From Alicyclobacillus mali NBRC 102425 (GTDB taxonomy: Bacteria; Bacillota; Bacilli; Alicyclobacillales; Alicyclobacillaceae): a DNA stretch of 64,000 nt. The first letter of the stretch is position 1, and every line of letters starts with the position of its first letter. Below the pieces are notes generated by a model. That model ran no database searches, was not told the DNA's origin, and saw only the letters and a list, made by a program, of their open reading frames with translations. Of the stretch, positions 1 through 52,813 are shown piece after piece. A program made the position numbers and the translations under genes. Location: contig NZ_BCSG01000017.1 in the NCBI RefSeq assembly GCF_001570745.1, positions 1-64,000 on the forward strand, written 5' to 3'.

Positions 1-800
1 AAATTAACTGAAATTCCAACTAAGCTTGTTTTATACCCATACGTCATTATTTCGTAATTTGCACACACGGATTCACCATTGTTCTTTTCATACTCGAACG
101 AAAGTTTCCGGCGTCGTTCTTCGAGATATTCGCGAAACAGCCTCTTAAATACCCTAAAGTTGCTGCTGCCGAATACGACGATAAGTTCCGGCGCTATGTA
201 GGTTATCAAATCCCTGAGGAAGTTCTGCGCCCATTGATTCTGAAACAAATCTCGTTCCGCCAAACCTCTTATCTGGCTATAGTCACTCACTGTGACAAAC
301 GGGAACAAATCTAGATGGATGGCTGTATACTGCACATCTGGAATCTCGTAATAGGATCCATTCAGGTTTTGTAGCAACCGCTCTACTAGATATGGATCTT
401 CCTTTTTTCCAAACCACTTTACGTACGGCTGCTTCTTAAAATAGAAGTTATAACTATTCAAGATTTCGGTGGAAAGAGCCTCGTTTTGCAGAATGTCTTG
501 CAAGGATTCATTGTTCTCCAGGACTCTAAAACGGTTTTCGTTTGGCGGTTCTAGGTAGATAAGCTTCGTCTGATCGCCGGTATCCGCCAACAATTTCAGA
601 GCCTGTTTTTTATTCAGCTTGAGAAATTCACTTCGCGACGGATTTGCCCCGATTGTGACTATCTTCGGTTTCCGTGATTGGGTATTTCCAAACCAAATCA
701 CAGGAGGGGCTCTGTCCAAAAGTTCGTGTCCCCACTTGCCACGGAGTTCAATTTGCTTTCTTACGGCGCGGTGAAGCATCTCGATTTCGTAGCTGGACAA
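1..800 (-). CDS. Uracil-DNA-glycosylase-like fold protein, partial (C-terminus outside window)
   Basis: This leftward frame is open from a TTG at 800 to the window edge, about 266 residues. A GAGAGGAG ribosome site lies 8 bases upstream, and an in-frame TGA 18 bases upstream of the TTG leaves it as the only good start. The pattern recalls the uracil-DNA glycosylase superfamily: WFGNT at 36-40, an IGANPS loop at 50-55 after a hydrophobic strand, a HLDLFP strand at 162-167, and VVFGSSNF at 208-215. It would bind or process damaged or modified bases, but no catalytic residue can be assigned with confidence. Base composition is much more AT-rich than the core genes, which suggests transfer. Its position beside the DUF499-DUF1156 operon suggests a defence-island accessory. 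The family call is tentative; the existence of the gene is much surer. Confidence 0.6.
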   Translation of the reverse strand, partial: MSSYEIEMLHRAVRKQIELRGKWGHELLDRAPPVIWFGNTQSRKPKIVTIGANPSRSEFLKLNKKQALKLLADTGDQTKLIYLEPPNENRFRVLENNESLQDILQNEALSTEILNSYNFYFKKQPYVKWFGKKEDPYLVERLLQNLNGSYYEIPDVQYTAIHLDLFPFVTVSDYSQIRGLAERDLFQNQWAQNFLRDLITYIAPELIVVFGSSNFRVFKRLFREYLEERRRKLSFEYEKNNGESVCANYEIMTYGYKTSLVGISVN

Positions 801-1549
801 GGGAAGTGTCTCCTCTCAAAAAGATTCCAGTTCAATGAGTCCGGTCAAAAAATAATTCGCCAAGAACCAGTGTAGTCGCGTCATGCCGTGGAGGTGATAC
901 TCGGCTCATAGAGGCGCGGTTAAACTTCTCTCCACATTCAGTCGCTGATGATAGTTGCCCGAATTCAATTCTATGTAGTATATTAAGCATTCATGCTCCT
1001 TTGGATACCAAATCGAATGGTTCTTGAACACTCAGTCCAACAACTTACAGACATTTGTTCCGATATATCTAGGAGAGGCAAATGGCCTCTGTCATTCAAC
1101 TACTGCTTATTTACCAGTTTCTTTGTCCTGCGGCAAGCTGTTATTTCGTGATTTTCGCTATCTTCTCCAGAAGGACCAGCGCGGAAACAAGTAGCGACCG
1201 TCGTTCATGCCACGATTCACGAGATAGCGTTTTAACGCGGGTGATATCACCAGCTTTTCATCGGCCTGCCGAAGTTCTTTGCGCAGGCGAAAGATCTCGT
1301 CTTGCATGTCACCCTCGTACGCTGAACTCATATCGTCTTGCCACGTGTTCGACCCTTCTAAGGCGTGTTTCACCAATCGTCCTATGAATTTCTTGCCAAG
1401 ATAGCAAGGAGAACGTGGAACTGCGGCGAATATACATCTAGGATGTCATTCTTATCGCTGTGTGAAATGCAAGCACGCGATGAGTGCTGATACGCATAAG
1501 CGTGACTTGTGTTCGTGAAGCCTACCAGCAAGACAGGAGGACGCTTTGC
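801..1549. other. AT-rich intergenic stretch between the UDG-like gene and the defence operon
   Basis: About 750 bases with no convincing intact gene. The short frames in it have weak ribosome sites or protein-unlike composition. A possible decayed transposase piece lies at 1158-1376. The promoter of the DUF499 operon must be here or just upstream of 1550, but no clear -35/-10 pair was found. Confidence 0.5.
1158..1376 (-). pseudogene. Possible remnant of an IS3-type transposase OrfA
   Basis: A 72-residue leftward frame contains a charged helix (DEIFRLRKELRQAD) of the leucine-zipper kind found near the C-terminus of IS3-family OrfA proteins. It is preceded by VKHALEGSNTWQD, which resembles an OrfA N-terminal helix-turn-helix segment but joins the zipper too early, as if an internal piece were deleted. 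The rest does not match what I recall of the family. No terminal inverted repeats or OrfB were seen. If correct, it is a decayed insertion sequence marking the edge of the defence island. Confidence is low because the match rests on one helix. Confidence 0.3.
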
Positions 1550-4500
1550 GTGATCCACGTGAGGGACGCATGTAAACCTCGTCAAGAAATTATCCAGGGA
1601 AACCTAAATCTCGAGGTATTTACGGCTTCGCTTCGTCCCGTACTCGAGTTTTACCGCACGGGCGAGCGACGGTTGGACGATGTTTACTTAGATGCTCATC
1701 GGTTTTTTAGAGAAGCTACCTATCCAACCAAAGGACTCTTAACGGTACTACGCCAAACGATGCAGCGTCTTGCAGGAGACATGGGGGTCCCAGCCATTCA
1801 ACGCCTGGAAACGGGCTTTGGCGGTGGCAAGACGCACACTCTCATTGCTTGCACACACGTCGCTCATTTGGGCCGTAACATCGCCGACGTCCTCAAGGCG
1901 TCACTTCTGCAGAACTTCGGCGAAGAAGATATGGAAGCTTTCCTTCGCGCGCTGCCGGAGCCTGGTGAAGTGACTGTCGTCGGCGTAGCTGGTGACGAAA
2001 TCCCCGTACACAAGCCGCAGGGCACAGAACTCGTGCCTTACACGCTTTGGGGAGAGATTGCGCGTCAAGTTGGTGGAGACGCGCTCTATCTTGCACTCGG
2101 CGATGAGGCCACCTCGTTCGCTGCGCCAGGCGGTACGTATTTCGATCGCGTCTTTGGCGGTCGCAAGGCGCTCATCATGCTGGATGAGTTAGCACAGTAT
2201 GCGGCGAGGCTCGAAGCCGCGCGGCCAGATGGTGCATCTCAGTTGGCGGCTTTCCTGATGAGTCTTCATGGATACGCCCGTACACATCAGGGTGTCTCCA
2301 TCTTGCTGACACTAGCGAGTTCTACGGACGCATTCTCTCGTCAGACCGAGATGTTGAAGCGCCAGCTGGGCGATGTCGCTGGACGCGATATAACTGAGGA
2401 CGAAGTTGTCGCAATCGCAGAGCGCGCTCAGAAGAGCGCAAGCAGTGTTGTTGCACGGGATGCGGTAGCGGTGACTCCTGTGGATCAAACGGAACTCACA
2501 GCCGTATTGGCGAAGAGGTTATTCGAAACCATTGATCGGCAGGCCGCTGAGCAAGTCGCTGTCGAGTACATGCAACTTTACAACAAGAATATGCACATGC
2601 TTCCCGCCGATAAGGTGCCATCCTTGCGGGAACGAATGGTAAGCACGTATCCATTCCACCCGACGTTCATCGATTTTCTGAATCACAAACTCGCGGAAGC
2701 AGAGAATTTCCAAAAGACGCGTGGCGTTCTGCGAGTGCTGTCTTTGGTTGTGCGCAATCTGTGGATGAGTACGTTTGATGCTCCAATGATCCACGTATGT
2801 CACGTGGACCTGCGGTCCCGCGACATTGTCGACGAGATTTTAGGTAGAACGAGCAGTGCGGATCTTCAATTCATCCTTCACGCCGATATCGGGAGTTCAC
2901 AGTCAAGTCGCTTAGAGAGCGGCCTGAGCAATGCCGAGCGGTTAGACCGCGAATGGATGAGCAAAATCCCGGCATGGGATGGTTCCGGCCGCGGACACAT
3001 TCCTGTGCACGAGTTTACGTGGAAGACCGTTTTTTTGAATAGCCTTGTGGGCCGGCACGAGGGGCTGAACTCAAACGTATTTGGTGTTACCGAGGCCGAG
3101 GCTATCCTGCAAACGGCCTATCCTGGGCTCCCGCCCTACAACGTTCGTCAGGCGCTCGAGGCCATTCGGGAGAATGCGTATTATCTACGCTTCGATCAGG
3201 GTAAGTACTTTGCGAGCGAAGAGCCTACGATTAACAGCGTGTTGGCCCGAATCCGCCAATCGTTGCCGCTGGGACAAGTTGAAGGGAGGTTAGACGATGT
3301 TGTTCAGCGGATGATTCAAGATCGTACGGGTCTGTTCCGTATTGTTCCTAATGTAGACGCGCCAGAGCAGATACCGGATGATCCGGAACATCTCTTGCTT
3401 GGAATTGTTTCGCTATGGACAGACGACTTCGATCTTGATCTGGTCTACACATTTGCAGGTGAGAATCGGCCCCGCCAGTTCCAGAACCACTTGTATCTGC
3501 TCGTCCCGAACACGGTCAGGCTGAAGGGACGAGAAGTCGAGCTCTTTGCAGACCAGCAGGCGTTAGAAGCGAGAGATCGTCTGCACGATCTTGCTCGTCA
3601 GGTGATCGCAATGGACAAGTTAAATCGGGAGCCTGAGAGCTACGGTGTGAACCCGCGCTACCTGCAGTCGCAAGAATTCACACTGCGCAGAAAGGAGCGC
3701 GAACAAGCGCTTCAGAGGGCGGTTGTGGCATCTTATCGGCTGCTCGTGCTGCCTACACGGCATGGACCAGAAACGATTCAGCTATCCGCGTCCTCTGGCG
3801 CCGAGAGCGGAGGGGCCATCCTCAATCTGGTAAGAGAACAGCTGATTTCTGCTGGGAAATTGGTTCTATCAAACGCGGTGAAGCGCGAAACGGTCGTCGC
3901 GCTATCTCAACTGCTCTTTGGTGATGGATCGGACCATATCATGATTGACCAAATTGCCCAACGAGCAAAGACCAATCGAGCCTGGCCCGTGTTCGAGACA
4001 AAGCAGCTTCTTGAGCAACTTATTCGCCACGGGGTCGAAATTGGCCATTGGTGCGTGTTCAGACAGGTCGGTGCTGAAGAGGATCCTCGCGTCGAGCTTT
4101 ATTTCATGCATTACAAAGACTATCCTGACCAACCTCTGCCGCTGAGTGCAGAGATTATGAATGGCGATTATGGCATTGTGACGTTCCAGGGCGCTATTCA
4201 ACGCGCTTGGTTAAAACCTCGCATTGACTTACAGGGGATTGCGGCGAGAATCATTCAGGAGAATGGTTGCTTGCGATTGGCAGACCTGAAGGAGAAGGTG
4301 TCGGCCGAGATCGCCAAGCAGACCGGAGACGCATCGGAGATACGGGAGCAGAGTATTGAGGCAGCCGTGCAGCAGCTTCTCAGGTCTGGCCAGATTTGGG
4401 CGTATGAAGGCTCGCCGGAGCAAACAGAGCGGCCGGCAAAGCAGTGGAAGGCCCATGATGTGCTGTACACGCCATGGCCAGAACACGTTCTCATTCTCCC

Positions 4501-4885
4501 GGATGAGGCCAAGCGCCGAGGTTGGGATGATGTAGAGCAAGCGCGCGGCCCGCGCATCCTACCGGTTCGCGGTCACGACGCACTGGTCAAGCTGTGGCCA
4601 GAACTTCCTAAGCTCGAGAGGATGTACATGCGTGGAGGCTGTAGCAAAATTCAGAGGCTCGAGCTGTCCGAACTCTCTGGTCCGGGCGCGTGCCGCGTCA
4701 CGCTGTCGTTTGAAGACCTCGATCCTGATGCACTAAAGAGTCTAGGAGCCACGTTCCAGCATCTAAGGGAAGTCTTTGAGATAGATGATTCGTCCGAGAT
4801 TGACATGCGCATAGAACCGCAGGAAGGTTGTCCATTCGTCCAAAGGCTTGTAGATCTAGGTCTTGTGCACGAGGTGAGGTTGTGA
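1550..4885 (+). CDS. DUF499-family AAA+ ATPase of a putative anti-phage operon
   Basis: The protein is about 1111 residues. I chose the GTG at 1550 because an AGGAGG box ends 9 bases before it and the family's N-terminal segment (DACKPR near residue 5) begins there; the upstream 22 codons look untranslated. A Walker A site GFGGGKTHT lies at 89-97 and a Walker B strand with acidic end (LIMLDE) near 207-212, so it should bind and hydrolyse ATP. DUF499 proteins are large P-loop ATPases related to the PglY/BrxC proteins of phage-defence systems and usually sit beside DUF1156 methyltransferases, as here. The exact role, perhaps a DNA-bound motor or sensor, is inferred. Its TGA overlaps the next gene's GTG by four bases, which implies translational coupling. 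Confidence 0.85.
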   Translation: MIHVRDACKPRQEIIQGNLNLEVFTASLRPVLEFYRTGERRLDDVYLDAHRFFREATYPTKGLLTVLRQTMQRLAGDMGVPAIQRLETGFGGGKTHTLIACTHVAHLGRNIADVLKASLLQNFGEEDMEAFLRALPEPGEVTVVGVAGDEIPVHKPQGTELVPYTLWGEIARQVGGDALYLALGDEATSFAAPGGTYFDRVFGGRKALIMLDELAQYAARLEAARPDGASQLAAFLMSLHGYARTHQGVSILLTLASSTDAFSRQTEMLKRQLGDVAGRDITEDEVVAIAERAQKSASSVVARDAVAVTPVDQTELTAVLAKRLFETIDRQAAEQVAVEYMQLYNKNMHMLPADKVPSLRERMVSTYPFHPTFIDFLNHKLAEAENFQKTRGVLRVLSLVVRNLWMSTFDAPMIHVCHVDLRSRDIVDEILGRTSSADLQFILHADIGSSQSSRLESGLSNAERLDREWMSKIPAWDGSGRGHIPVHEFTWKTVFLNSLVGRHEGLNSNVFGVTEAEAILQTAYPGLPPYNVRQALEAIRENAYYLRFDQGKYFASEEPTINSVLARIRQSLPLGQVEGRLDDVVQRMIQDRTGLFRIVPNVDAPEQIPDDPEHLLLGIVSLWTDDFDLDLVYTFAGENRPRQFQNHLYLLVPNTVRLKGREVELFADQQALEARDRLHDLARQVIAMDKLNREPESYGVNPRYLQSQEFTLRRKEREQALQRAVVASYRLLVLPTRHGPETIQLSASSGAESGGAILNLVREQLISAGKLVLSNAVKRETVVALSQLLFGDGSDHIMIDQIAQRAKTNRAWPVFETKQLLEQLIRHGVEIGHWCVFRQVGAEEDPRVELYFMHYKDYPDQPLPLSAEIMNGDYGIVTFQGAIQRAWLKPRIDLQGIAARIIQENGCLRLADLKEKVSAEIAKQTGDASEIREQSIEAAVQQLLRSGQIWAYEGSPEQTERPAKQWKAHDVLYTPWPEHVLILPDEAKRRGWDDVEQARGPRILPVRGHDALVKLWPELPKLERMYMRGGCSKIQRLELSELSGPGACRVTLSFEDLDPDALKSLGATFQHLREVFEIDDSSEIDMRIEPQEGCPFVQRLVDLGLVHEVRL

Positions 4886-5499
4886 AGGGTACTAAATCCC
4901 CCAAATTACACCAGAGAGAGATACAAGAACGGTACAGCCGATATGTAGAACCCCTCGTGCGGCAGATGCCATGGGTGTTAAGAATCACGGAGCGCAAAGG
5001 AAAGCCAAGCCCAGTGTTCGTCGTCAAAGAGCGAGTTCATGTTCTAGACGAAGGCACGAATCCGGGCTCGCGCAAGGTTTCGTCCGTGCTTAAGGAGCGG
5101 GGGACTTTGTACGGCCCCGCACTCTGGCGATGCAGGCCTGTGTTGCGGCTGATTCTCGCCGAAGTGAAAGATGGACTTGGCATTCCACTCGAACTGCAAC
5201 AGTTTGTCGCTGACCAACGCGTTTCGTTTCGTGGCAATCTTCCTCTGGATGCAGAAGCTGGTGAAAAGCTTGCCTTGCTATTCAAACTGCAGGAGCGAGT
5301 CACCGATATGGATCGCGTCGAGCTCATGGCGTGGCGGATCGAACGATGCACAGCGGAAGAGGCTGGATACTGGTGGTCTCGTATCACACAATTCAACGAG
5401 GCTGCGAATCGGTGGGCGCAAGCAGGATTGCGGCTCCTGTTGGGTGGTCAGCCGGGCGATCCCGCCGTGATCGAGATGTTGCAAGAAATTCGGAGATGA
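4882..5499 (+). CDS. Small conserved partner protein of the DUF499-DUF1156 operon, function unknown
   Basis: About 205 residues, starting at the GTG that overlaps the DUF499 stop (GTGA) behind a GAGGTGAGG ribosome site; the longer upstream frame lies inside DUF499. The protein is basic at its N-terminus, with a mid-region beta-like stretch (SPVFVVKERVHVLD), a central helical part and a C-terminal amphipathic section ending IEMLQEIRR. I see no catalytic motif, membrane segment or metal site. Related loci often carry a small gene here (DUF3780 or similar), but I cannot assign this protein to a named family. Its place between the ATPase and the methyltransferase, with an overlapping start, suggests a stoichiometric subunit or adaptor. 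Confidence 0.75.
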   Translation: MKGTKSPKLHQREIQERYSRYVEPLVRQMPWVLRITERKGKPSPVFVVKERVHVLDEGTNPGSRKVSSVLKERGTLYGPALWRCRPVLRLILAEVKDGLGIPLELQQFVADQRVSFRGNLPLDAEAGEKLALLFKLQERVTDMDRVELMAWRIERCTAEEAGYWWSRITQFNEAANRWAQAGLRLLLGGQPGDPAVIEMLQEIRR

Positions 5500-5517
5500 C
5501 GAGAACGGAGGATTTGC

Positions 5518-8500
5518 ATGTCAACGGGTGTGACGATTCAGGACAGGCGACTCATCGAGGCAGGATTTCCTTGTCATCAAGTTGGAGCGGAGACGCAGCG
5601 GGAGCGGGACACGGGGCAAGCCCCGCCGACTCATCGTTTGCACGTGTGGTGGGCACGGCGCCCGCTTACGCCGAGCCGCGCCGCCATCCTTGGGTCTATC
5701 TTGCCGGCCGATACCGATCCAGATTGGTTCCTGAGGCAGCTGGGCATTGAGAAGGCCGTGGCGATTGTAAATGGGCAGGAGTGGACGTTGGATCCTGACC
5801 TCTGGGAAAAGATTCAGGCGACGGCCACGGGCGAGGAATATATCGAGGTAGATGCAGCCGTGGTGCGAGCCTATCACAGGGAGTGTAAGAGAAGGAATGA
5901 AAATCAAAAACTGCTATCGGACTTAATCGCCAAGGAGCCGCGACTGGCTTCGGATCCCGTGGTGGTGAGATGGATGCGTGAAGACGCTCCATTACCCGCA
6001 GAGCCTCCGTTAGTCGGTGCAAGGTTGGTTGTCCACAGAATCGCCGCTGATCCGAGTTGGGCAAAGCAGAGGATAGAGTGGGAAAACGAGCATGGTATCC
6101 GGACAGCTGATGACAAGTATGGCTATCCAAGAGCGTTCACCGTAACTAACAAAAAAGTACTACCTACTAATACTAAGCTTACAATTTTAGATCCAACAGC
6201 TGGAGGTGGATCTATACCTTTTGAAGCGCTGCGATTGGGCCAGCACGTGATAGCGAATGATCTCAATCCAGTGGCCGCAGTTATACTCCATGCAACATTG
6301 GAGTATCCACTGCGCTTTGGTCGGGAACTTGCCGGTGACATTGAAAAGTGGGGGAATATATTGCGCGAGAGACTCGTGGAGGCTATTGGCGACTTGTTTC
6401 CCGCAGCTTCCACTGATGGATTAGCAAGTTCATTGCAAAGCGAAACACCGGATGGCTACATCTACTGCCGCCAAGTCACCTGCCCGCACTGCGGGGGAGA
6501 GGCTCCGCTTCTCAACACTTGCTGGTTGTCTAAAAACGGAGATAAGTGGGCCGTGCGGATCGTCCCGGACGGCAAGGCGCAGGGCGGAAAGGTCCACTTC
6601 GAAACATATCGATTGACTGGAAACAAGGGACCGAATGGCGAAGATCCCGACTTTGCGACCGTAAAGGATGGCGTCGGGCTTTGCGTGCACTGCAAACAAG
6701 CCGTTCCCTCCGAAGAGATCCGGGCGCAAGCACGAGGTGAGTCGCCGAGAGGCAAATGGCGCGATCGCCTGTATTGCGTGGTCGCCGTGCGTTATCAACC
6801 GAAGCTCGACAAGAACGGGCAGCCCATACGCTACAAGAGCGGCAAAAATGCGGGCGAGATTCGCACGGAGAAAGTAGTGTATTATCGCCCGCCGAACGAA
6901 GCCGATCTCGCCGCTCTCGAGGAAGCTGAACGGCGGCTGATGGAGCACTGGGATGAATGGAACGCCAAGGGGCTCATCCCAACAGAGGCGATTCCAGAAG
7001 GACATAAGACGAGCGAACCACGCAGGTACGGCATGACGCGGTGGTGTGACATGTTTACGCCGCGGCAGTTGCTTGGACACTTGACGCTGATCGAGGAGCT
7101 TAATCGGCTAAAGCCGCAAATCCTGGCCGAGTTAGGGGAAGAGCGGGGCAAAGCGGTCGTAACATATTTACAGTTCGCGATCGACAAGGGGCTGGATTAT
7201 AACAGTAAGCAGACGAGATGGCATTACGGACGAGGCGTTATCGTAAATACTTTTGGACGGCATGATTTCTCTCTTAAGTGGACCTTCGCAGAGATGGTAC
7301 TCACCGGCCCCAATTCGGGTATTGCCTGGGGCCTTACGCAGGTGATAGACGCTTACAAGGGTGTGAGCGGTCTTTTACCTCACAAGGTTGACGGAGGTCT
7401 CAGGGATACTAGGGCTCGTGTCCTATGTGGTACAGCAGCTTATTTGGGCGGCGAGTCGAGCTCAGTTGACCTAATATGCATGGATCCTCCATATTACAAT
7501 AATGTACAATATGCTGAATTGTCCGATTACTTCTACGTATGGCAGCGTAGGACATTGAGAGACCTCTATCCCGGATACCTTTCTCGTCCGCTTACAAATA
7601 AGGACGATGAGGCTGTCGCCAATCCGGCGCGCGACGGCTCATCGAGGAACGCGAAAATCGAATATGAGAGGTCCATGTTAGAAATTTTTTCTGAATGTCG
7701 GCGAGTCCTAAAGAACCAGGGCATCATGTGTATTATGTTTACTCACAAAGCACAAGAAGCCTGGGAGGCTCTCACGAAGTCGCTCATTGAGACGGGATGG
7801 ACGATCACAGCCTCCGTGCCCGTTGACAGCGAAGCTAGCGAGTCGATTCATCAGAAGGACAATGCCTCGGCCGCCAGCTCCATCTTCCTCACCTGCCGGA
7901 AGCGAGACACGGAGAATCAGGCTCCGTCGGTATGGTCCGGATTTGGCGGCACCGGTGTGGCCGCACAGATTCGTGAGGCTGTGCGCGAGGCTTTGAAGGA
8001 GTTCGAACCCCTTCGTCTAAATCCGGTGGACGAGATGGTCGCGAGTTACGGGCGCGCCTTGCAGGTTTTGTCGCAGAACTGGCCGGTACTGGACGGAGAC
8101 GAGATGGTCAGCCCAATACGCGCGATGAATGAGGCCAGTGCGGTGGTGGCGCAGTACCAGATTGCCCGCATGACCAACGGCCGTATTCGCGTCGAAGACT
8201 TGAGTTCCGAAGCGGCCATGGCGCTCACCTTGTTTGGCATTTTCGGTACGCAGCAGTTTCCTTATGACGAGGCGTTAAGCCTGTCGAGATCGCTCAACAT
8301 GAGCCTTGAGACGAAGACGGGTGGATACCGGGTCGAGCCTCGGATGATTGGTATCAATAACGAGTTGTCCGGGCGTCGCCGGGAAACCACTGAGGAGTCA
8401 GGCTACTACGCGCCGCTTGTCAAAAAGGGTTCGAAGCTTCGCTTGGCACTGCCGGAAGAGCGGAATCCGAAACGCCTTCAGGCGCCTCAGACAGAATGGG

Positions 8501-8712
8501 ACATGTTGCAGGGACTCATCATGGCGTACCGAGAGGGCGATATCCCGGGAGCACATACCTACTTGCAGCGACATGCGGAAGGTAGGGCGTCGCTCGTCCT
8601 TGATCTCTTGGCCGTTTGGGCTTCGCGCGTCGCGGACGACAAGAAACGAAAAGAGGCAGAGACCATCCTGTACAGTCTGCGCGCTGACTCGGGAGTGGCT
8701 TCGGCTTGGTGA
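5518..8712 (+). CDS. DUF1156-domain adenine-specific DNA methyltransferase
   Basis: A 1064-residue protein with an ATG six bases after a GGAGG box. The N-terminal DUF1156 signature LHVWWARRP is at 41-49. The SAM-binding motif I DPTAGGGS is at 225-232 and is followed by NDLNPVA. The catalytic motif IV DPPYYN at 656-661 marks an amino-methyltransferase that probably modifies adenine in DNA. Two CxxC pairs (322-325 and 389-392) between them could hold a zinc ribbon. Relatives include the PglXI-type methylases of type 3 BREX. The inferred role is to mark host DNA while the neighbouring ATPase and helicase act on unmarked phage DNA. Parts of the gene around motifs I and IV are noticeably AT-rich compared with the rest. 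Confidence 0.88.
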   Translation: MSTGVTIQDRRLIEAGFPCHQVGAETQRERDTGQAPPTHRLHVWWARRPLTPSRAAILGSILPADTDPDWFLRQLGIEKAVAIVNGQEWTLDPDLWEKIQATATGEEYIEVDAAVVRAYHRECKRRNENQKLLSDLIAKEPRLASDPVVVRWMREDAPLPAEPPLVGARLVVHRIAADPSWAKQRIEWENEHGIRTADDKYGYPRAFTVTNKKVLPTNTKLTILDPTAGGGSIPFEALRLGQHVIANDLNPVAAVILHATLEYPLRFGRELAGDIEKWGNILRERLVEAIGDLFPAASTDGLASSLQSETPDGYIYCRQVTCPHCGGEAPLLNTCWLSKNGDKWAVRIVPDGKAQGGKVHFETYRLTGNKGPNGEDPDFATVKDGVGLCVHCKQAVPSEEIRAQARGESPRGKWRDRLYCVVAVRYQPKLDKNGQPIRYKSGKNAGEIRTEKVVYYRPPNEADLAALEEAERRLMEHWDEWNAKGLIPTEAIPEGHKTSEPRRYGMTRWCDMFTPRQLLGHLTLIEELNRLKPQILAELGEERGKAVVTYLQFAIDKGLDYNSKQTRWHYGRGVIVNTFGRHDFSLKWTFAEMVLTGPNSGIAWGLTQVIDAYKGVSGLLPHKVDGGLRDTRARVLCGTAAYLGGESSSVDLICMDPPYYNNVQYAELSDYFYVWQRRTLRDLYPGYLSRPLTNKDDEAVANPARDGSSRNAKIEYERSMLEIFSECRRVLKNQGIMCIMFTHKAQEAWEALTKSLIETGWTITASVPVDSEASESIHQKDNASAASSIFLTCRKRDTENQAPSVWSGFGGTGVAAQIREAVREALKEFEPLRLNPVDEMVASYGRALQVLSQNWPVLDGDEMVSPIRAMNEASAVVAQYQIARMTNGRIRVEDLSSEAAMALTLFGIFGTQQFPYDEALSLSRSLNMSLETKTGGYRVEPRMIGINNELSGRRRETTEESGYYAPLVKKGSKLRLALPEERNPKRLQAPQTEWDMLQGLIMAYREGDIPGAHTYLQRHAEGRASLVLDLLAVWASRVADDKKRKEAETILYSLRADSGVASAW

Positions 8713-11700
8713 GAGAGATGCAGGAAAACGCGAAACGAGGCTTTCAATCGCGTCTATGGCAGCATAGGTACCGCACATCGGCCGTGATCGACGGGCGGCC
8801 GATGGATATCCTTCATGACTTCTACCTGCCAGCGCTCGAGCTGGCGACTCGATACGATAGGGTGGCGGGGTACTTCCGCTCCTCGTCCTTGGCCGCGGCT
8901 TCCCGCGGCTTTTCGAGCATGGTGGGCCGCAAGGGCACCATTCGGATGGTGGTCGGCGCGGATCTTGACCCGGAAGACGTGCGTGCTGTTCTGCGCGGCG
9001 ATCAGGCTCGTTTGGCGCGCGCGCTAGGTCGGGAACTGGAAGATAGCTCGCTTTGGCCCGCGCCTGTGCAAGACGGGGTGACGCTGCTGGCTTGGATGGT
9101 TGCGCAGGGAGTGCTTGAAATACGCGTGGCTCTGCGCCGCCATGCTGAGACCGGGGAACCCCTTCCGTTTGACAGCACGGAGGATGGGTATTTTCACGAC
9201 AAGTTTTTTATCCTGACGGACGATGAGGACTGTCGAATTTACGGGACGGGATCGCTCAATGAATCGCGCACGGCGCTCGTGCTCAACGCGGAGAGCATCG
9301 ACATTCACTGCGATTGGTGGAGCGACATTGACAGGATACGTTGCGATGAGGCGCAGGCGGACTTCGAGAGGCTTTGGGACGGAAAGGCGCCTCATTTTGC
9401 CGTCTGCCCACTTCCGGACGCGGTTCGTCGTCGACTGATTCGTCTCGCAGAAGGGGTGACGGTGGTTCGCGAAGTCGACGGCACGGAGGTGGAGGTAGCT
9501 CCGGAGCAGGCTTCTTCGCCGAGTGCTCCGTCTGCGCTCGAGTGGCTCCGGTTTGCGGTCATTCGCGACGCGCCGCGCATGCCGGGTGGGGAACAAGTCG
9601 GGATTGAAACCGCGCCGGTTGCGCCGTGGCCGCACCAGCGGGTGGTGGCGGAGCGCCTGGTCGAGGACTGGCCCTATAACTACATGCTGTGCGATGAGGT
9701 TGGATTAGGAAAGACGATTGAAGCAGGTCTGGCTTTTCGGGCGTTGTATTTGTCTGGCTGGATTCGGCGGATCCTTGTGGCTGCGCCGGCCAGCTTGACC
9801 GAGCAGTGGCTGCAGCAGATGAAGACGAAGATGCTCTTGCCGTTCGCCCGGCTGCGCATGTCGCCAAGCCCCGAACATCGTTACTTGCTTCCCTACGAGC
9901 ACAGTGTTCCAGCCCGAATGCCATACGGTGCGGATCTCCTCATCGTGTCGACCGGCCTCTGGCAACGAGAGGGTGCCGCGCGAGATCTCCTCGCTGCTCC
10001 ACCATATGATCTCGTCCTTGTCGATGAAGCTCACATGGCGCGGCGCCATAATGCATCCGCTGGAATGGATGAGGCGCCAGACTACAGCAACCTTTATCGG
10101 CTGCTCGATTCGTCTGTTCGTCCACACAGTCGTAGCCTGTGGCTCGCCACAGCGACCCCCCTCCAACTGGACATGGTGGAAGTCGCCGATCTCGTCCGGC
10201 TCGTCGGTCGGGTGAGCGGATTTCAGTACGAACCGGCGCTCTTCCGCACGTATTATGAATCGCTGGCCAAGTTGCTGCACGAGGAACGATTGTCCGACTG
10301 GGAGTGGCGTTTTGTTCGGGATGCGCTCCAAGCATTGAAATCCCATGATCCTGCGCTGTGGCATTTCATCACAGAGCACGTCTTGACGAGGATGCAGACG
10401 CGGGCGCTGGACGCTTGGTTTGAACAGCCGGAGGCAGGCGAGCCTTCGCGCCGCGCGCGTGATAAGATGCCCATCGTTGCTCGGATGGCAGCGCCTCTTT
10501 CTCGGGTCATGCTTCGGCATACGCGCGAGCTGTTGAAGGTGTACAAACAGCATGGTCAGCTCAATGGATCATTGGCAGAGCGCGAAGTTCGTCCCGTGGA
10601 GGCGTTGGAATACACGCCGGAAGAGGCTCACGTGTACAAGTTGCTCAATCGGTATTGTGAAGGGCTTCGTGACAGGCTCGGTTCCGACAGCAGCCGAGGA
10701 GCTTCCGCGCGTTTCTCGGTCCGATTCCTCGAGAGCCTACTTCGCCTACGATTTGCATCGAGCCTGTACGCATTCGCCAAGACTGTTGAGAGGCGACTCA
10801 AGCGCGTCATCGCGACTTTGGAACACGCGGAACGCGAAGAAACTCCGCTCGCTACGGACCTCGAGACGGAGGATGTCTACGAACCTGAGGTGGAGGACAC
10901 GGAGGTCTTCGAGGTAGAGCTCTTGGCACATCGCGATCCCGAAGTGTTGCGCTGGGAGCGCCGCCAGCTCGAGCAGTTGAAGCAAGTCCTCCAGGCGATC
11001 ACGACTACACCTACCAAGACCCGAAAACTACTCGACGTGCTCGATCAACGCCGCCTCGGAGACGGACGTCTAAAGCAGACGGTCATTTTCACCCGGTTTT
11101 ACGACACGCTTGTCCACTTGCGGGAGAAGTTGTTTGAGCGGATGCCAGGCGTGCGGCTCGGAGTCTACTCTGGGCGCGAGGCTGGTTACTTCGACGTTGA
11201 GCTTCAGATGTGGATCGAGACGGATCGCGAGGAAGTCAAAGAGCGGTTCTTGGCGGGAGAGATAGACGTACTGCTGTGTACGGACGCCGCGGCTGAGGGG
11301 CTAAACCTCCAGACAGCTGACATGCTGATCAACTTCGATCTCGGCTGGAATCCGATGAAAATCGAGCAGCGTATTGGGCGCATCGATCGAATCGGGCAGC
11401 GCCACAATCGAATCTACGTCCTCAACTTGTGCTATGCACAGTCGGAGGAAGGTGAGGTGTACGCTCGCCTCTTAAAACGACTGGCAGAGGCCAAACACGT
11501 TGTAGGCCCGCAGCAGCTGTCCCTCTTGCCGGTGCGGACGGAAGAATTCGAGCAATTGGCGAAGGGTGAACTCGCGCTCGATGAGTTGCATCAGCGGGTG
11601 ATGAGTCGCCTGGAAGCCGAAGAGAGACAAGCTCATCTGATGCAGCTCAGCGCAGACGAGATGTACGAAATGTACGAGCGCATGTTAGCTACGTCCTCTG

Positions 11701-12659
11701 GACGCACCACGCCCCTGCGCCTGCAAGATATCTGGGACACGCTTGCCGGTTCCGCTTACTTGAAAGGCCTAGGTTGCTACACGGAGGAAACGCCATATGG
11801 CCCCGTGTTTGTGGTCCAAGGCGTTCCCGGTGTGGAAGACGGTACACGGCTTACCGTTTCTCCAGAGCTCTATGAGCGGGGACTTCCCGGACACCATATC
11901 CATTTCGCCTCCTATGGCGATACCGTCTTCGACACCATTGTCGAGCACGTTCTGTCTCATCCGATGCCGTCAGGTGTGAGACGCGTATCTGTGCCAGGAG
12001 GCGAGTACGGGCCGATTGAGCGCTGCGGCTACGTTGTCCTGTGTGATAGTCAGGAGGGACATGAGGCACGTTTTACGGTCCATCACGTCACGAGCTTCCA
12101 GGACACCTTGCATGTACGCGATGTCGCGACAGACGTCGACTGGAATGTGGTTGCGCCAGCAGCCGAGAACGTGTTGCGCGAGCGGCTCGCTGACGAACTC
12201 AGCAGGGCTATCCGAGTACGACAGGAGAAACGAAACGCCCAATCGGTAAATGAGAAACTGGGGTTCTATCACGCTTGGCTGAGTGTTGTGACCGCGGACC
12301 GGCTGTTGCGTGAGGTACGTGGGTCTAAAGATGAAGCGCAGATTCGCGCGACGGCTGCCATCCGCGAATATGAAGAGCGATTTTGTGATCGACACGCCAT
12401 TCGGATCCCGCTCGTGCCAGTACGTATTCTCGCGTCTTGGTTTCCGCATGCCATGGCGGTGGATAGGGAAAATGCCTGGATAGAAGGAGATCTAACGCAG
12501 CTTGTGGTGGGTTTTCCGTACATTCAAGCGGGGTTAAGCGTCGCTCGACGAGCAGTGGACGCCTTAAAAAAAGAAGAGGGTTCGGTCACCTTGCAGAAGC
12601 TTCAGCATCGGCTCGTCATTGAGGAAGAGTCGTGGATGCGAAAATTAGCTTCCGGCTGA
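8709..12659 (+). CDS. Fused phospholipase-D-type nuclease / SNF2-family helicase
   Basis: About 1316 residues. The GTG at 8709 overlaps the methyltransferase stop (GTGA); an ATG nine bases on is an alternative. The N-terminal part is PLD-like: HDK at 163-165 and GSLNES at 181-186, a single half-site with slightly irregular spacing to the following Asp. The SNF2/RapA-type helicase follows: DEVGLGKT (329-336), DEAH (439-442), GLNLQTA near 864 and the arginine-finger motif QRIGRIDRIGQ from 887. The C-terminal 350 residues are unassigned. In DISARM, the PLD protein and an SNF2 helicase are separate genes; here they are one chain. It probably translocates on DNA and cuts it. Confidence 0.85.
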   Translation: MREMQENAKRGFQSRLWQHRYRTSAVIDGRPMDILHDFYLPALELATRYDRVAGYFRSSSLAAASRGFSSMVGRKGTIRMVVGADLDPEDVRAVLRGDQARLARALGRELEDSSLWPAPVQDGVTLLAWMVAQGVLEIRVALRRHAETGEPLPFDSTEDGYFHDKFFILTDDEDCRIYGTGSLNESRTALVLNAESIDIHCDWWSDIDRIRCDEAQADFERLWDGKAPHFAVCPLPDAVRRRLIRLAEGVTVVREVDGTEVEVAPEQASSPSAPSALEWLRFAVIRDAPRMPGGEQVGIETAPVAPWPHQRVVAERLVEDWPYNYMLCDEVGLGKTIEAGLAFRALYLSGWIRRILVAAPASLTEQWLQQMKTKMLLPFARLRMSPSPEHRYLLPYEHSVPARMPYGADLLIVSTGLWQREGAARDLLAAPPYDLVLVDEAHMARRHNASAGMDEAPDYSNLYRLLDSSVRPHSRSLWLATATPLQLDMVEVADLVRLVGRVSGFQYEPALFRTYYESLAKLLHEERLSDWEWRFVRDALQALKSHDPALWHFITEHVLTRMQTRALDAWFEQPEAGEPSRRARDKMPIVARMAAPLSRVMLRHTRELLKVYKQHGQLNGSLAEREVRPVEALEYTPEEAHVYKLLNRYCEGLRDRLGSDSSRGASARFSVRFLESLLRLRFASSLYAFAKTVERRLKRVIATLEHAEREETPLATDLETEDVYEPEVEDTEVFEVELLAHRDPEVLRWERRQLEQLKQVLQAITTTPTKTRKLLDVLDQRRLGDGRLKQTVIFTRFYDTLVHLREKLFERMPGVRLGVYSGREAGYFDVELQMWIETDREEVKERFLAGEIDVLLCTDAAAEGLNLQTADMLINFDLGWNPMKIEQRIGRIDRIGQRHNRIYVLNLCYAQSEEGEVYARLLKRLAEAKHVVGPQQLSLLPVRTEEFEQLAKGELALDELHQRVMSRLEAEERQAHLMQLSADEMYEMYERMLATSSGRTTPLRLQDIWDTLAGSAYLKGLGCYTEETPYGPVFVVQGVPGVEDGTRLTVSPELYERGLPGHHIHFASYGDTVFDTIVEHVLSHPMPSGVRRVSVPGGEYGPIERCGYVVLCDSQEGHEARFTVHHVTSFQDTLHVRDVATDVDWNVVAPAAENVLRERLADELSRAIRVRQEKRNAQSVNEKLGFYHAWLSVVTADRLLREVRGSKDEAQIRATAAIREYEERFCDRHAIRIPLVPVRILASWFPHAMAVDRENAWIEGDLTQLVVGFPYIQAGLSVARRAVDALKKEEGSVTLQKLQHRLVIEEESWMRKLASG

Positions 12660-20741: not shown

Positions 20742-20767
20742 GGCTCAGCCCGACGGGCTGATGAGCC
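20742..20767. repeat. Inverted repeat right after aceA
   Basis: Arms GGCTCA and TGATGAGCC with an inner GCCCG/CGGGC pair form a compact hairpin immediately after the aceA stop. No T-run follows; it may protect the 3' end upstream of the true terminator. Confidence 0.35.
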
Positions 20768-20821
20768 CCGCGATCTCGGCGCTCTGCGAGGATGGTTCCA
20801 ACTCGGCATGGCACTCACTTT

Positions 20822-20846
20822 GGGGCCCGGTGTGGCCCCGTTTTTT
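20822..20846 (+). terminator. Intrinsic terminator of aceA
   Basis: GGGGCC and GGCCCC pair around a 6-base loop and are followed by a G and six Ts (20841-20846), a typical Rho-independent terminator. Confidence 0.85.
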
Positions 20847-20983
20847 GTTGCGTGGTTGCAGGGTAGCAGGTGAGAACATAAGGAGCAGGGGAATTCGGAC
20901 GGCCCCGTTCGCAGACGAGGTCTGGGGCGAAGCGGGGCGTGTGGTGCCATGGATCACCACACTGAGAAGCGGCGGGGTGAGGA

Positions 20984-21172
20984 GCGCGAACCTGAATCGA
21001 TGGCGAAAACCCGGGGGGTTCGCGAAATGCGAGAATTCCGCATGGGGGCTGGATTTTTGAGCATAGACAGGGTATGATGATGGCAGTTGGAAGGCGCGTG
21101 AAGGACGCGCGTTGCGTAGGTTCGCGATTTTCGCCCGGAAGGCCGCGCCAGGAGCGGGCTCAGGGGCGTAGA
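20984..21172 (+). promoter_or_regulatory. CRISPR leader 1
   Basis: These 189 bases are clearly homologous to the reverse complement of 52814-53002, the stretch beside the second array, and to nothing else seen in the window. Conserved blocks include the GCGAACCTGAATCGATGG start, the TTCGCGAAAT block, and CTGGAT and TATGAT 18 bases apart (TATGAT at 21073-21078), a plausible promoter. The end next to the repeat is also conserved. This fixes + as the transcribed strand. Confidence 0.8.
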
Positions 21173-22290
21173 GTTGATCCGCCGAGATCGTCGGCGGCCC
21201 CATTGAAGCGGATAGAGTCCGTCTGCTGTTGTGGCTCCAGCAAACGTTGATCCGCCGAGATCGTCGGCGGCCCCATTGAAGCTCCATAATCGCCGCCACA
21301 TGATCACGCCGCAAAGTGTTGATCCGCCGAGATCGTCGGCGGCCCCATTGAAGCTTGCGTTGCAAGATCGTGATCTCCGCTGTGTTATGTTGATCCGCCG
21401 AGATCGTCGGCGGCCCCATTGAAGCCCGGTCTTCCAGACGGCATTCGGGATCAGGATGTTGTGTTGATCCGCCGAGATCGTCGGCGGCCCCATTGAAGCA
21501 GCGCGTCGTCCCACATGTCGTAAACCGCGCCCTGTTGATCCGCCGAGATCGTCGGCGGCCCCATTGAAGCTACCCGGCGTCGTAGATGGACTTGGCCGTG
21601 GCCTCCGTTGATCCGCCGAGATCGTCGGCGGCCCCATTGAAGCATCTTGTGGGAATATACGTCGTTCCCCGCAGGAGGAAGTTGATCCGCCGAGATCGTC
21701 GGCGGCCCCATTGAAGCAATCTCTTGCTCAGCCCGCTTTGCTCGATGTCCCACGTTGATCCGCCGAGATCGTCGGCGGCCCCATTGAAGCTTTACAGACC
21801 TCCTTCCAGTCCTCATCTCTGCAGAGTTGATCCGCCGAGATCGTCGGCGGCCCCATTGAAGCGTGAGCCGTAACCCATATATGTCTGGGTGCGTTTGGTT
21901 GATCCGCCGAGATCGTCGGCGGCCCCATTGAAGCGTGACAACGAACGCATGGACGGAACTGCAATACGAGTTGATCCGCCGAGATCGTCGGCGGCCCCAT
22001 TGAAGCCGACACCGGTTTCTTATTCTCCACCTATAAATACCGTTGATCCGCCGAGATCGTCGGCGGCCCCATTGAAGCTCGAAGCCGTGTTGACAGGTGG
22101 CACCATCTGCATCCGTTGATCCGCCGAGATCGTCGGCGGCCCCATTGAAGCTACCTCGCCGTAGTATCAGAAGCCATTGCTGTCCATGTTGATCCGCCGA
22201 GATCGTCGGCGGCCCCATTGAAGCAATCGCAGGATGTCTCGTACCGTCAACACCGAGAACGTTGATCCGCCGAGATCGTCGGCGGCCCCA
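21173..22290 (+). CRISPR. CRISPR array 1: 16 repeats, 15 spacers
   Basis: The 37-base repeat begins GTTGATCC, contains a 7-bp inverted repeat (CCGCCGA/TCGGCGG, 5-base loop) and ends ATTGAAGC, which would be the 8-base handle of the crRNA. Repeats start at 21173, 21246, 21318, 21389, 21463, 21534, 21607, 21681, 21754, 21826, 21898, 21970, 22042, 22115, 22188 and 22261. Spacers are 34-37 bases and all differ. The last repeat is cut after 30 bases (its TTGAAGC end is lost), marking the leader-distal end. No cas gene is nearby, so the subtype cannot be told. Confidence 0.97.
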
Positions 22291-51311: not shown

Positions 51312-52813
51312 AAGGCGGGCCCGCCGACCGTCTTGGCGGATCAACGGAAGACCTCGAGCACCCACTCTTCGCCCGCAAGCCGCTTCAATGGGGCCGCCGA
51401 CGATCTCGGCGGATCAACTTAGGCAATCAAGTGCAGGAATGTCTTCGCGCCCGGCTTCAATGGGGCCGCCGACGATCTCGGCGGATCAACGTTGATCACC
51501 CCGCGTATGTTGTGCAGGTTACGATTGCTTCAATGGGGCCGCCGACGATCTCGGCGGATCAACCCGGGTAGCATTTCGTCCGCAGTCGTGGAGCTGTGGC
51601 TTCAATGGGGCCGCCGACGATCTCGGCGGATCAACGCACGGGTTCGGGCTCTTTATGGAGCCTGGAACAGGTAGCTTCAATGGGGCCGCCGACGATCTCG
51701 GCGGATCAACGTTATACGAGCTTGGCATGATTGGCCTTGTCAAAGCTGCGCTTCAATGGGGCCGCCGACGATCTCGGCGGATCAACAATTATGATAAATA
51801 CTGTTACTATCTGAGCCAAAGTAGCTTCAATGGGGCCGCCGACGATCTCGGCGGATCAACTGACTTCGATCTTTACGGATCTCTGTTTACTGCACAGCTT
51901 CAATGGGGCCGCCGACGATCTCGGCGGATCAACGGTGCTGCCTTTGTTCGCGAGCGCCAACAGCGCCTCGTAGCTTCAATGGGGCCGCCGACGATCTCGG
52001 CGGATCAACGGCCTCGAAGTCTGCTTCCTTGCGCTTGATATTTTCGCTTCAATGGGGCCGCCGACGATCTCGGCGGATCAACTTGTACGCACCCATGGTC
52101 AATAATAGCTACCAAATTCAGGCTTCAATGGGGCCGCCGACGATCTCGGCGGATCAACCAAAGCCCTGCAAAAGTTTGTGGAGCTCGCCGCGCCGGCTTC
52201 AATGGGGCCGCCGACGATCTCGGCGGATCAACCCGCCCCTTTTTTGCTGGGTATTTCTGCGGCGGAAGGCTTCAATGGGGCCGCCGACGATCTCGGCGGA
52301 TCAACCGCACACGGTCGTACTTCGCGAAGAAGTTCTCGAGGCTTCAATGGGGCCGCCGACGATCTCGGCGGATCAACGCGTCCGACAGCGACGGCGAAGT
52401 GTTCTCTGGCGGTGCTTCAATGGGGCCGCCGACGATCTCGGCGGATCAACTGTGACTGCGGATCTTGCGATCCGGAGATCTTCATGCTTCAATGGGGCCG
52501 CCGACGATCTCGGCGGATCAACTGATCCTGGATGTAGTAAACAGCCCAAATCCAGGAAGCTTCAATGGGGCCGCCGACGATCTCGGCGGATCAACGGAGA
52601 TGCAGGTAGCGACGAAGTGCTCGCATGTGCTGCTTCAATGGGGCCGCCGACGATCTCGGCGGATCAACGACTTCAGAGGTTGCGCGAACGTGACGGAGAG
52701 GTGGGCTTCAATGGGGCCGCCGACGATCTCGGCGGATCAACAACAAAGCGAAGAGTCCCTAAACCATTAACTCCACGCTTCAATGGGGCCGCCGACGATC
52801 TCGGCGGATCAAC
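51312..52813 (-). CRISPR. CRISPR array 2: 20 full repeats plus one degenerate, 20 spacers
   Basis: The same 37-base repeat as array 1, in reverse orientation (GCTTCAAT ... GGATCAAC on +). Full repeats start at 51382, 51454, 51527, 51599, 51674, 51750, 51824, 51897, 51973, 52046, 52122, 52196, 52269, 52341, 52414, 52486, 52559, 52632, 52705 and 52777. Spacers are 35-39 bases. A degenerate repeat (51312-51345) marks the old end. The leader is on the right, so transcription is leftward. The newest spacers are nearest 52813. Confidence 0.97.

Follow-up and report, generated by a model that had tools for sequence, protein, structure and literature searches.

DUF499-centred BREX-related (BR/Hma) systems were described in 2026 and fall into three types, with a DUF499 protein, a DUF1156 methylase and a Snf2 helicase as the published Hma/BR core (PMC12839542; Hma in PMC8565338). 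According to PMC12839542, type 2 BR combines DUF499, DUF3780, a DUF1156 methylase and an HKD helicase, the HKD-helicase fusion being a stated feature of this type and DUF3780 occurring in 98% of its taxa; for DUF3780 itself, that paper reports that no definitive homologs were found.

The window analyzed here (i.e., a stretch of 64,000 nucleotides from Alicyclobacillus mali NBRC 102425) begins at base 1 of its contig, and 1.5 kb from that end carries a cassette that had been described, from its sequence alone, as four genes on one strand. Re-reading the gene ends and junctions from the sequence upheld this description (1550–12659, all on the + strand), and yielded the following features:

1535..1542 (position approximate), + strand: candidate ribosome-binding site AGGAGG, preceding the GTG start at 1550 (sequence)
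1550..4885, + strand: DUF499 AAA+ ATPase gene (Pfam, motifs)
1814–1834, + strand: Walker A motif GFGGGKT of the DUF499 ATPase (motif)
2174–2188, + strand: IMLDE motif of the DUF499 ATPase (motif)
4565–4849, + strand: DUF7744 at the C-terminus of the DUF499 ATPase (PF24897, 65 bits)
4882..5499, + strand: gene of the DUF7680 protein, 205 aa (Pfam PF24728, AlphaFold2)
4972–5448, + strand: DUF7680 domain (PF24728, 105 bits)
5518..8712, + strand: DUF1156 adenine methylase gene (Pfam, motifs)
6190–6213, + strand: DPTAGGGS of the methylase (motif)
6481–6492 and 6682–6693, + strand: two CxxC motifs of the methylase (motif)
7483–7494, + strand: DPPY of the methylase (motif)
8709..12659, + strand: HKD(PLD)-Snf2 helicase gene (Pfam, NF042964, motifs)
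9195–9260, + strand: HDK...GSLN of the helicase HKD domain, residues 163–184 (motif)
9693–9716, + strand: DEVGLGKT of the helicase (motif)
10023–10034, + strand: DEAH of the helicase (motif)
11376–11399, + strand: GRIDRIGQ of the helicase (motif)

Since AGGAGG precedes the GTG at 1550, this start was preferred over the opening of the reading frame at 1484. Two of the three junctions (ATPase/DUF7680 gene and methylase/helicase gene) are GTGA overlaps, while the DUF7680 and methylase genes are separated by an 18-base gap (5500–5517), all as previously read. The divergent gene at 3–800 (P0005) was considered as a fifth component and rejected, having no BLAST match in 25 DUF7680 neighbourhoods; it also had no family match in PADLOC or Pfam.

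Profile searches agreed with the domains that the sequence-only reading had assigned to the three large proteins. The ATPase matched PF04465 with 110 bits (cut-off of 23), the methylase matched DUF1156 (PF06634, 58 bits) and N6_N4_Mtase (PF01555, 31 bits), and the helicase exceeded the cut-offs of both SNF2 (PF00176, 39 bits) and Helicase_C (PF00271, 65 bits). That nuclease and helicase form one protein was likewise supported by the HDK...GSLN motif, by NF042964 (351 bits over residues 33–934, below its own cut-off of 1100) and by the PADLOC models PLD_Helicase and PbeA (201 bits for the latter), with the Pfam PLD domain staying below threshold (PLDc_2, 15.1 bits vs. the 27 needed). PbeA of the DndCDEA-PbeABCD systems is likewise described as a fusion of HKD nuclease and SF2 helicase; those systems differ in having an ABC ATPase and a phosphorothioate mark set by Dnd proteins (PMC6459918, PMC10853773). 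The second gene, whose product had been called unknown, in fact encodes a member of Pfam family DUF7680, although it still is the least-known component of the four, and no PADLOC 2.0.0 or NCBIfam 20.0 model (including their DUF3780 models) matched it.

The cassette thus contains the DUF499 AAA+ ATPase, DUF1156 N6-methylase and Swi2/Snf2 helicase genes of a BR locus, and so belongs to a kind of system already on record (PMC12839542), contrary to the earlier view that it belonged to no known kind; what is new is the DUF7680 architecture. Judged from sequence, it is probably a fourth architecture of the DUF499-centred BR/Hma kind, i.e., DUF499(DUF7744) - DUF7680 - DUF1156 methylase - HKD-Snf2 helicase, acting as a self-contained, restriction-modification-like phage defence. 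Type 1 BR/Hma shares the three large proteins (as described in PMC12839542 and PMC8565338), but of the 18 three-gene loci that have no small protein, 17 are ordered helicase-methylase-ATPase, and these systems lack both the small protein and the HKD motif (0/22). The type 1 helicase moreover has an N-terminal TUDOR and a C-terminal PD-(D/E)XK nuclease domain, whereas the N-terminus of the window helicase is HKD-type and its C-terminal part matched no nuclease family in Pfam; the type 1 ATPase that was scanned carries HEPN, and the window cassette has neither HEPN nor an Hma-type helicase. When calibrated on true members, the window appeared roughly equidistant from types 1 and 2: HmaA, HmaB and HmaC (PADLOC) gave 163, 241 and 203 bits vs. 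1760, 1221 and 1134 for a type 1 locus (L112), and the NCBIfam type 2 models (NF042961–NF042964) gave 152–351 bits vs. 828–1453 for a DUF3780 system.

As had been proposed, the ATPase, methylase and helicase are homologous to those of type 3 BREX, and also of type 3 BR, both of which differ in containing PglZ as described in PMC12839542. PglZ and BrxL, already noted as missing from the visible locus, and BrxC (DUF6079) are absent from the whole genome (2.79 Mb, completeness given as 100%), with zero matches to PF08665, PF13337 and PF19557; DrmA and DrmB were both absent from the visible locus (Pfam, PADLOC, NCBIfam). With the contig end lying so close to the left, the cassette might be what is left of a larger BREX or DISARM locus, its other genes lying past that end, and one MZB-domain gene does occur elsewhere in the genome, on contig C30. 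However, this 762-aa frame, which we take to be probably an MrfA/YprA-type helicase, is of a kind also present in B. subtilis. Such a remnant is highly improbable given the genome-wide absences, the mid-contig cassettes of relatives on long contigs, which keep just the four-gene set, and the position of PglZ, which was matched in 12 of the 51 searched genomes but never beside a DUF7680 cassette.

DUF7680 was located on 61 contigs that span many phyla, and 41 of these carried all four genes in a single order and on a single strand; contig ends cut off the cassette in 14, and six loci lacked one or more of the genes despite having room for them. Moorella thermoacetica also carries the cassette (L154). 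The gene order had no exception in these 61 loci and 25 further neighbourhoods (overlapping samples that share some genomes). Main-group relatives were ~40–80% identical in all four proteins, and relatives with a short-form DUF7680 (group B, i.e., L041 and L047–L049) ~28–37% identical in the three large ones. From these sequences, the set is more than a chance association, and the suggestion of a self-contained methylation-type module holds for it as a gene set. Among 299 genomes of the phylum Bacillota, DUF7680 was found at 14 and DUF3780 at 11 of 58 DUF1156 places, never both together. No match to the window DUF7680 (P0002) was found in 72,556 plasmid records.

Methylases and Snf2 proteins have other roles too, and the module might therefore regulate or maintain DNA through epigenetic methylation and chromatin-type remodelling, with defence secondary or absent. 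This is very unlikely, given the nuclease motif kept in the helicase, the patchy presence of the cassette (7 of 101 relatives, this genome counted), the defence-like genes (judged by eye) that lie between the core genes of some relatives, and the defence role shown experimentally for the related HmaA, as described in PMC12839542.

Type 2 BR is among the closest known systems, and the cassette could simply be a diverged member of it, in which case DUF7680 would be a rapidly evolving DUF3780 and would not call for a subtype of its own. DUF7680 occupies the type 2 position of DUF3780 between ATPase and methylase, gene order and strand agree, and the HKD nuclease lies N-terminal to the helicase in both, the motif occurring in 37/37 DUF7680-system helicases, 10/10 DUF3780-system helicases and 0/22 others, with every HKD helicase on one side of a branch in the tree. 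The predicted folds also show their elements in the same order (AlphaFold2 pLDDT of 92.1 for DUF7680, with the DUF3780 model of only middling confidence at 78.4), and viruses hold lone copies of either family. Nevertheless, PF12635 (DUF3780) had zero matches in this genome, the DUF499 C-terminus is DUF7744 rather than Fn3-like, the helicase has 1316 aa rather than ~905, an aspartate at H+8 is present in 37/37 DUF7680 and 0/10 DUF3780 helicases, the three large proteins score far below true type 2 members, and DUF3780 systems separate with support of 100 in the methylase and ATPase trees. We therefore consider a diverged type 2 system rather unlikely, and favour the fourth architecture.

Profile comparisons did not support a homology between DUF7680 and DUF3780, no version giving a significant P: 0.18 for 21 vs. 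10 rows, 0.43 for 60 rows (54 of 61 loci, five viral copies and P0002; L202 and six more loci left out) vs. 26 rows (26 of 28; L220 and edge fragment L231 left out), and 0.48–0.64 with secondary-structure lines added. Fold searches of BFVD and PDB with DUF7680 yielded nothing at E ≤ 0.001, and the best VIA Z scores (6.0 for DUF7680, 3.2 for DUF3780) fall in a range which the tool calls common.

The neighbours of group B varied by tree, on long branches: the methylase trees place it with the main group, the ATPase tree with the systems that have no small protein (support of 94), and the helicase tree in an unresolved fork together with main-group and DUF3780 systems. L133 (a methylase with no other core genes in view) nests within group B in the larger of the methylase trees. 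Length limits were applied to the trees, for which 15 of the 61 broad loci were chosen; L140 was not in the ATPase tree, and the later methylase tree was built from 36 rows selected out of 76.

For the fourth architecture, we infer that the most likely function is methylation-licensed, ATP-driven restriction. The DUF1156 protein would methylate adenines of host DNA at a specific site, and DUF7680, a predicted adaptor or reader, would join the DUF499 ATPase to the methylase. The ATPase may then scan DNA and judge the modification state of the site, so that on unmodified incoming DNA the assembly would recruit or release the helicase, whose Snf2 motor would travel along the DNA while its HKD domain cuts or nicks it. 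The BR model published for related types (PMC12839542) counts towards this explanation.

DUF7680 also occurs outside the cassette. On four of five viral contigs it stands alone, without DUF499 or DUF1156, and two further scans for lone viral copies returned only the same five contigs; lone DUF3780 genes likewise occur (L231 being excluded from the count), including gp4 of the isolated Proteus phage vB_PvuS_Pm34. Lone DUF7680 copies include the viral L233 and L187 of Thermoactinomyces daqus. In 50,697 records of named phages, tblastn with P0002 and two lone viral copies found no match. It is possible, as a tentative proposal, that phages repeatedly capture DUF7680 or DUF3780 alone as a decoy, the free copy filling the joint between host ATPase and methylase and thereby disarming the DUF499 system or making it methylate the phage, and that both families form one superfamily of complex-forming subunits.

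With this cassette, a group of systems first classified in 2026 gains another widespread architecture. DUF7680, listed in Pfam as a family of unknown function, is thereby placed in a firm context, and DUF3780 gains a candidate distant relative. If the decoy proposal is true, lone DUF7680 and DUF3780 copies would be a marker for finding inhibitors of DUF499 systems, and these viral copies make phage counter-measures to such systems testable by simple co-expression.

The coordinates and junctions that the sequence-only reading gave for the four genes of the cassette (1550–12659) matched the re-read sequence. Profile searches, which had been proposed there as a check, confirmed the families of the ATPase, methylase and helicase and assigned the second gene product, previously an unknown 205-residue protein, to DUF7680:

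Gene 1: ATPase with DUF499 and a C-terminal DUF7744 domain (profile search)
Gene 2: DUF7680 protein (PF24728; 105 bits against a cut-off of 24)
Gene 3: methylase with DUF1156 and N6_N4_Mtase domains and a DPPY motif (profile search and motif)
Gene 4: helicase with Snf2 and Helicase_C domains following an HKD-type N-terminus (profile search and motif)

The closest DUF7680 match among named genomes was that of Alicyclobacillus fructus (82%). Per 1-kb window, GC content was 50–61% across the cassette and 63–70% in the next six windows. The host genome comprises 2.79 Mb in 85 contigs, and the contig in question (C17; 122,719 bases), of which the window covers bases 1–64000, starts ca. 1.5 kb left of the cassette. 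The only sizeable gene in this left part (3–800, minus strand, at least 266 codons) is divergent from the cassette and runs off the contig end; Pfam and PADLOC offered no family for it and NCBIfam models only noise, and its product bears a slight resemblance, judged by eye, to uracil-DNA glycosylases. The window also contains two CRISPR arrays that share a repeat, located at 20745–22218 (recognised as repeated peptides in ORF translations) and at 51384–52807 (a 24-base core in 20 copies), while no cas genes were recognised by eye in its ORF list. Because of the DPPY motif, the methylase would target adenine rather than yield m5C; the related HmaB is annotated as an adenine methylase in PADLOC-DB, versus m5C in its own paper (PMC8565338).

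The cassette is a real, conserved module. DUF7680 was present in 7/101 relatives and in 20/398 genomes of the phylum (host genome counted in both), and DUF499 and the methylase were found in all 25 non-self neighbourhoods, with the helicase in 23 and the remaining two stopping at contig edges. Among 61 DUF7680 loci from named genomes, a set that shares genomes with these neighbourhoods, DUF499 was present at 56, the methylase at 51, the helicase at 42 and the complete four-gene set at 41, with zero breaks of gene order or strand. By record title, these loci stem from Bacillota, Deltaproteobacteria, other Desulfo- groups, Gammaproteobacteria, Planctomycetes, Verrucomicrobia, Armatimonadetes, Ignavibacteria and Synergistetes. 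Fourteen of the 20 incomplete loci were cut at contig ends, and six had room yet missed some parts, i.e., DUF7680 stood alone (L178, L187 and L195), both methylase and helicase were missing (L190 and L193), or the helicase was missing (L184). Judged from sequence, the cassette is probably a functional defence module, for which the best-supported mechanism would be restriction licensed by methylation and driven by ATP, with the HKD-Snf2 protein as effector.

Several relatives carry additional genes inserted among the core genes. In L153, L185, L186, L189, L191, L192, L194, L196 and L202, they occupy the intervals separating DUF7680, methylase and helicase; by eye, the additional genes look like AAA ATPase, Abi and Schlafen-type genes, some of them like abortive-infection or OLD-type genes, and their positions are cargo sites worth mining.

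DUF499-centred BREX-related (BR) systems have been divided into three types (PMC12839542). In the main text of that paper, 'DUF7680' and 'DUF7744' do not occur and the DUF7680 architecture is not named (supplements aside), and its authors may have placed such loci under another type. The literature searched yielded no 'DUF7680', and 'DUF3780' only in this paper. Gene order is identical in DUF7680 and type 2 (i.e., DUF3780) loci, whereas three-gene loci without a small protein read helicase–methylase–ATPase in 17/18 cases (L140 being reversed). Among 299 genomes, DUF3780 occurred in 13 and DUF1156 in 52, the latter at 58 places, which held DUF7680 (14, window counted), DUF3780 (11), neither (33, including some truncated or lone methylases) or both (0); one genome holds a system of each kind, at separate places. 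The host genome itself has a second DUF499-type system (L116; contig C37, 1–4364) of the kind without small protein, with a helicase and a DUF1156 methylase, which ends at the contig edge and whose helicase clusters with type 1-like helicases in the tree.

When calibrated with true members, models NF042962–NF042964 scored 828, 1453 and 1362 bits in a DUF3780 system (L070) vs. 152, 247 and 351 in the window, and the HmaC, HmaB and HmaA models 1134, 1221 and 1760 bits in a type 1 system (L112) vs. 203, 241 and 163. Of the ATPases scanned, those from the window, L029 and L051 contain DUF7744, and three from group B, two DUF3780-type and two others do not; the two DUF3780-type ATPases gave Fn3-like matches and one of the two others HEPN, consistent with what has been published for type 2 and type 1, respectively. 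Within the tree set, an HxK..G[ST]xN motif was shared by the helicases of DUF7680 (37/37) and DUF3780 (10/10) systems and by 0/22 others, with an aspartate eight residues past its histidine in 37/37 DUF7680 and 0/10 DUF3780 helicases.

The methylase trees joined the main group of DUF7680 cassettes with group B (SH-like 99 with L133 inside; SH-aLRT 94) and kept the DUF3780 systems separate (100). For the ATPases, the tree set the main group by itself (100) and joined group B with systems without a small protein (94). The helicase tree placed all HKD helicases on one side of a branch (100), in an alignment whose columns may include the HKD part. Group B (L041, L047, L048 and L049) forms a second, divergent set of DUF7680 cassettes whose small protein measures 139–168 aa, a length that comes closest to that of the lone copies L234–L236 from viruses (138–158 aa).

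AlphaFold2 models of DUF7680 (pLDDT 92.1) and DUF3780 (78.4) share the element order E E E H E H H H H once the terminal helices and one short helix are left out; this order of four strands and five helices is one of 126 arrangements, and the omitted elements were hand-chosen, hence the agreement is not a test. An EE..W motif starts the equivalent helix in both models, and the best hhalign alignment of the two families fell in the same register as the fold elements, without being significant. DUF7680 and DUF3780 are probable, albeit unproven, distant relatives. DUF3780 was proposed as a reader of modified DNA (PMC12839542), and DUF7680 would be a candidate for the same role.

DUF7680 was also found on five viral contigs, with a complete cassette in L232 and DUF7680 alone in L233–L236, whose whole records (possibly fragments) lack DUF499 and DUF1156. 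L233 also encodes an Erf-like protein, SSB and a helicase, L234 a terminase large subunit and ribonucleotide reductase, and L235 exonuclease V, while L236 only matched phage families of unknown function. In bacteria, the lone DUF7680 gene of contigs L178 and L187 lies among small genes, of which 3/4 and 2/4 scanned matched phage families that are found in bacteria too; the organism of L187, Thermoactinomyces daqus, also has a complete cassette (L197). The lone gene of L195 (9764–10597) adjoins genes resembling CRISPR type III parts by eye. Lone copies were enriched among viral (4/5) vs. genomic (3/61) loci (Fisher p of 2e-4), a comparison that is biased because 11-kb cassettes seldom fit on viral contigs. 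L178, L187 and L233 are 69–74% identical to cassette copies, and since the nearest one differs for each, their sequences suggest several separate captures.

Lone copies recur for DUF3780, as DUF499 adjoins it in 19 of 28 viral loci and not in nine. Apart from an edge fragment (L231), the latter records (L212, L220, L224 and L226–L230) contain neither DUF499 nor DUF1156 anywhere; in L212, the opposite strand gave a helicase-like match, and DUF3780 in L220 adjoins terminase and portal genes. Moreover, an isolated Proteus phage, vB_PvuS_Pm34, encodes a DUF3780 relative, gp4 (39.5% over 111 residues, E of 2e-13), the sole match of three DUF3780 queries among 50,697 phage records. Regulation, self-methylation or chance capture might also account for lone phage copies. 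A lone phage-borne subunit of a host defence complex suggests interference with that defence, and these solo small-subunit copies in phages, though outside the window, constitute the most interesting lead.
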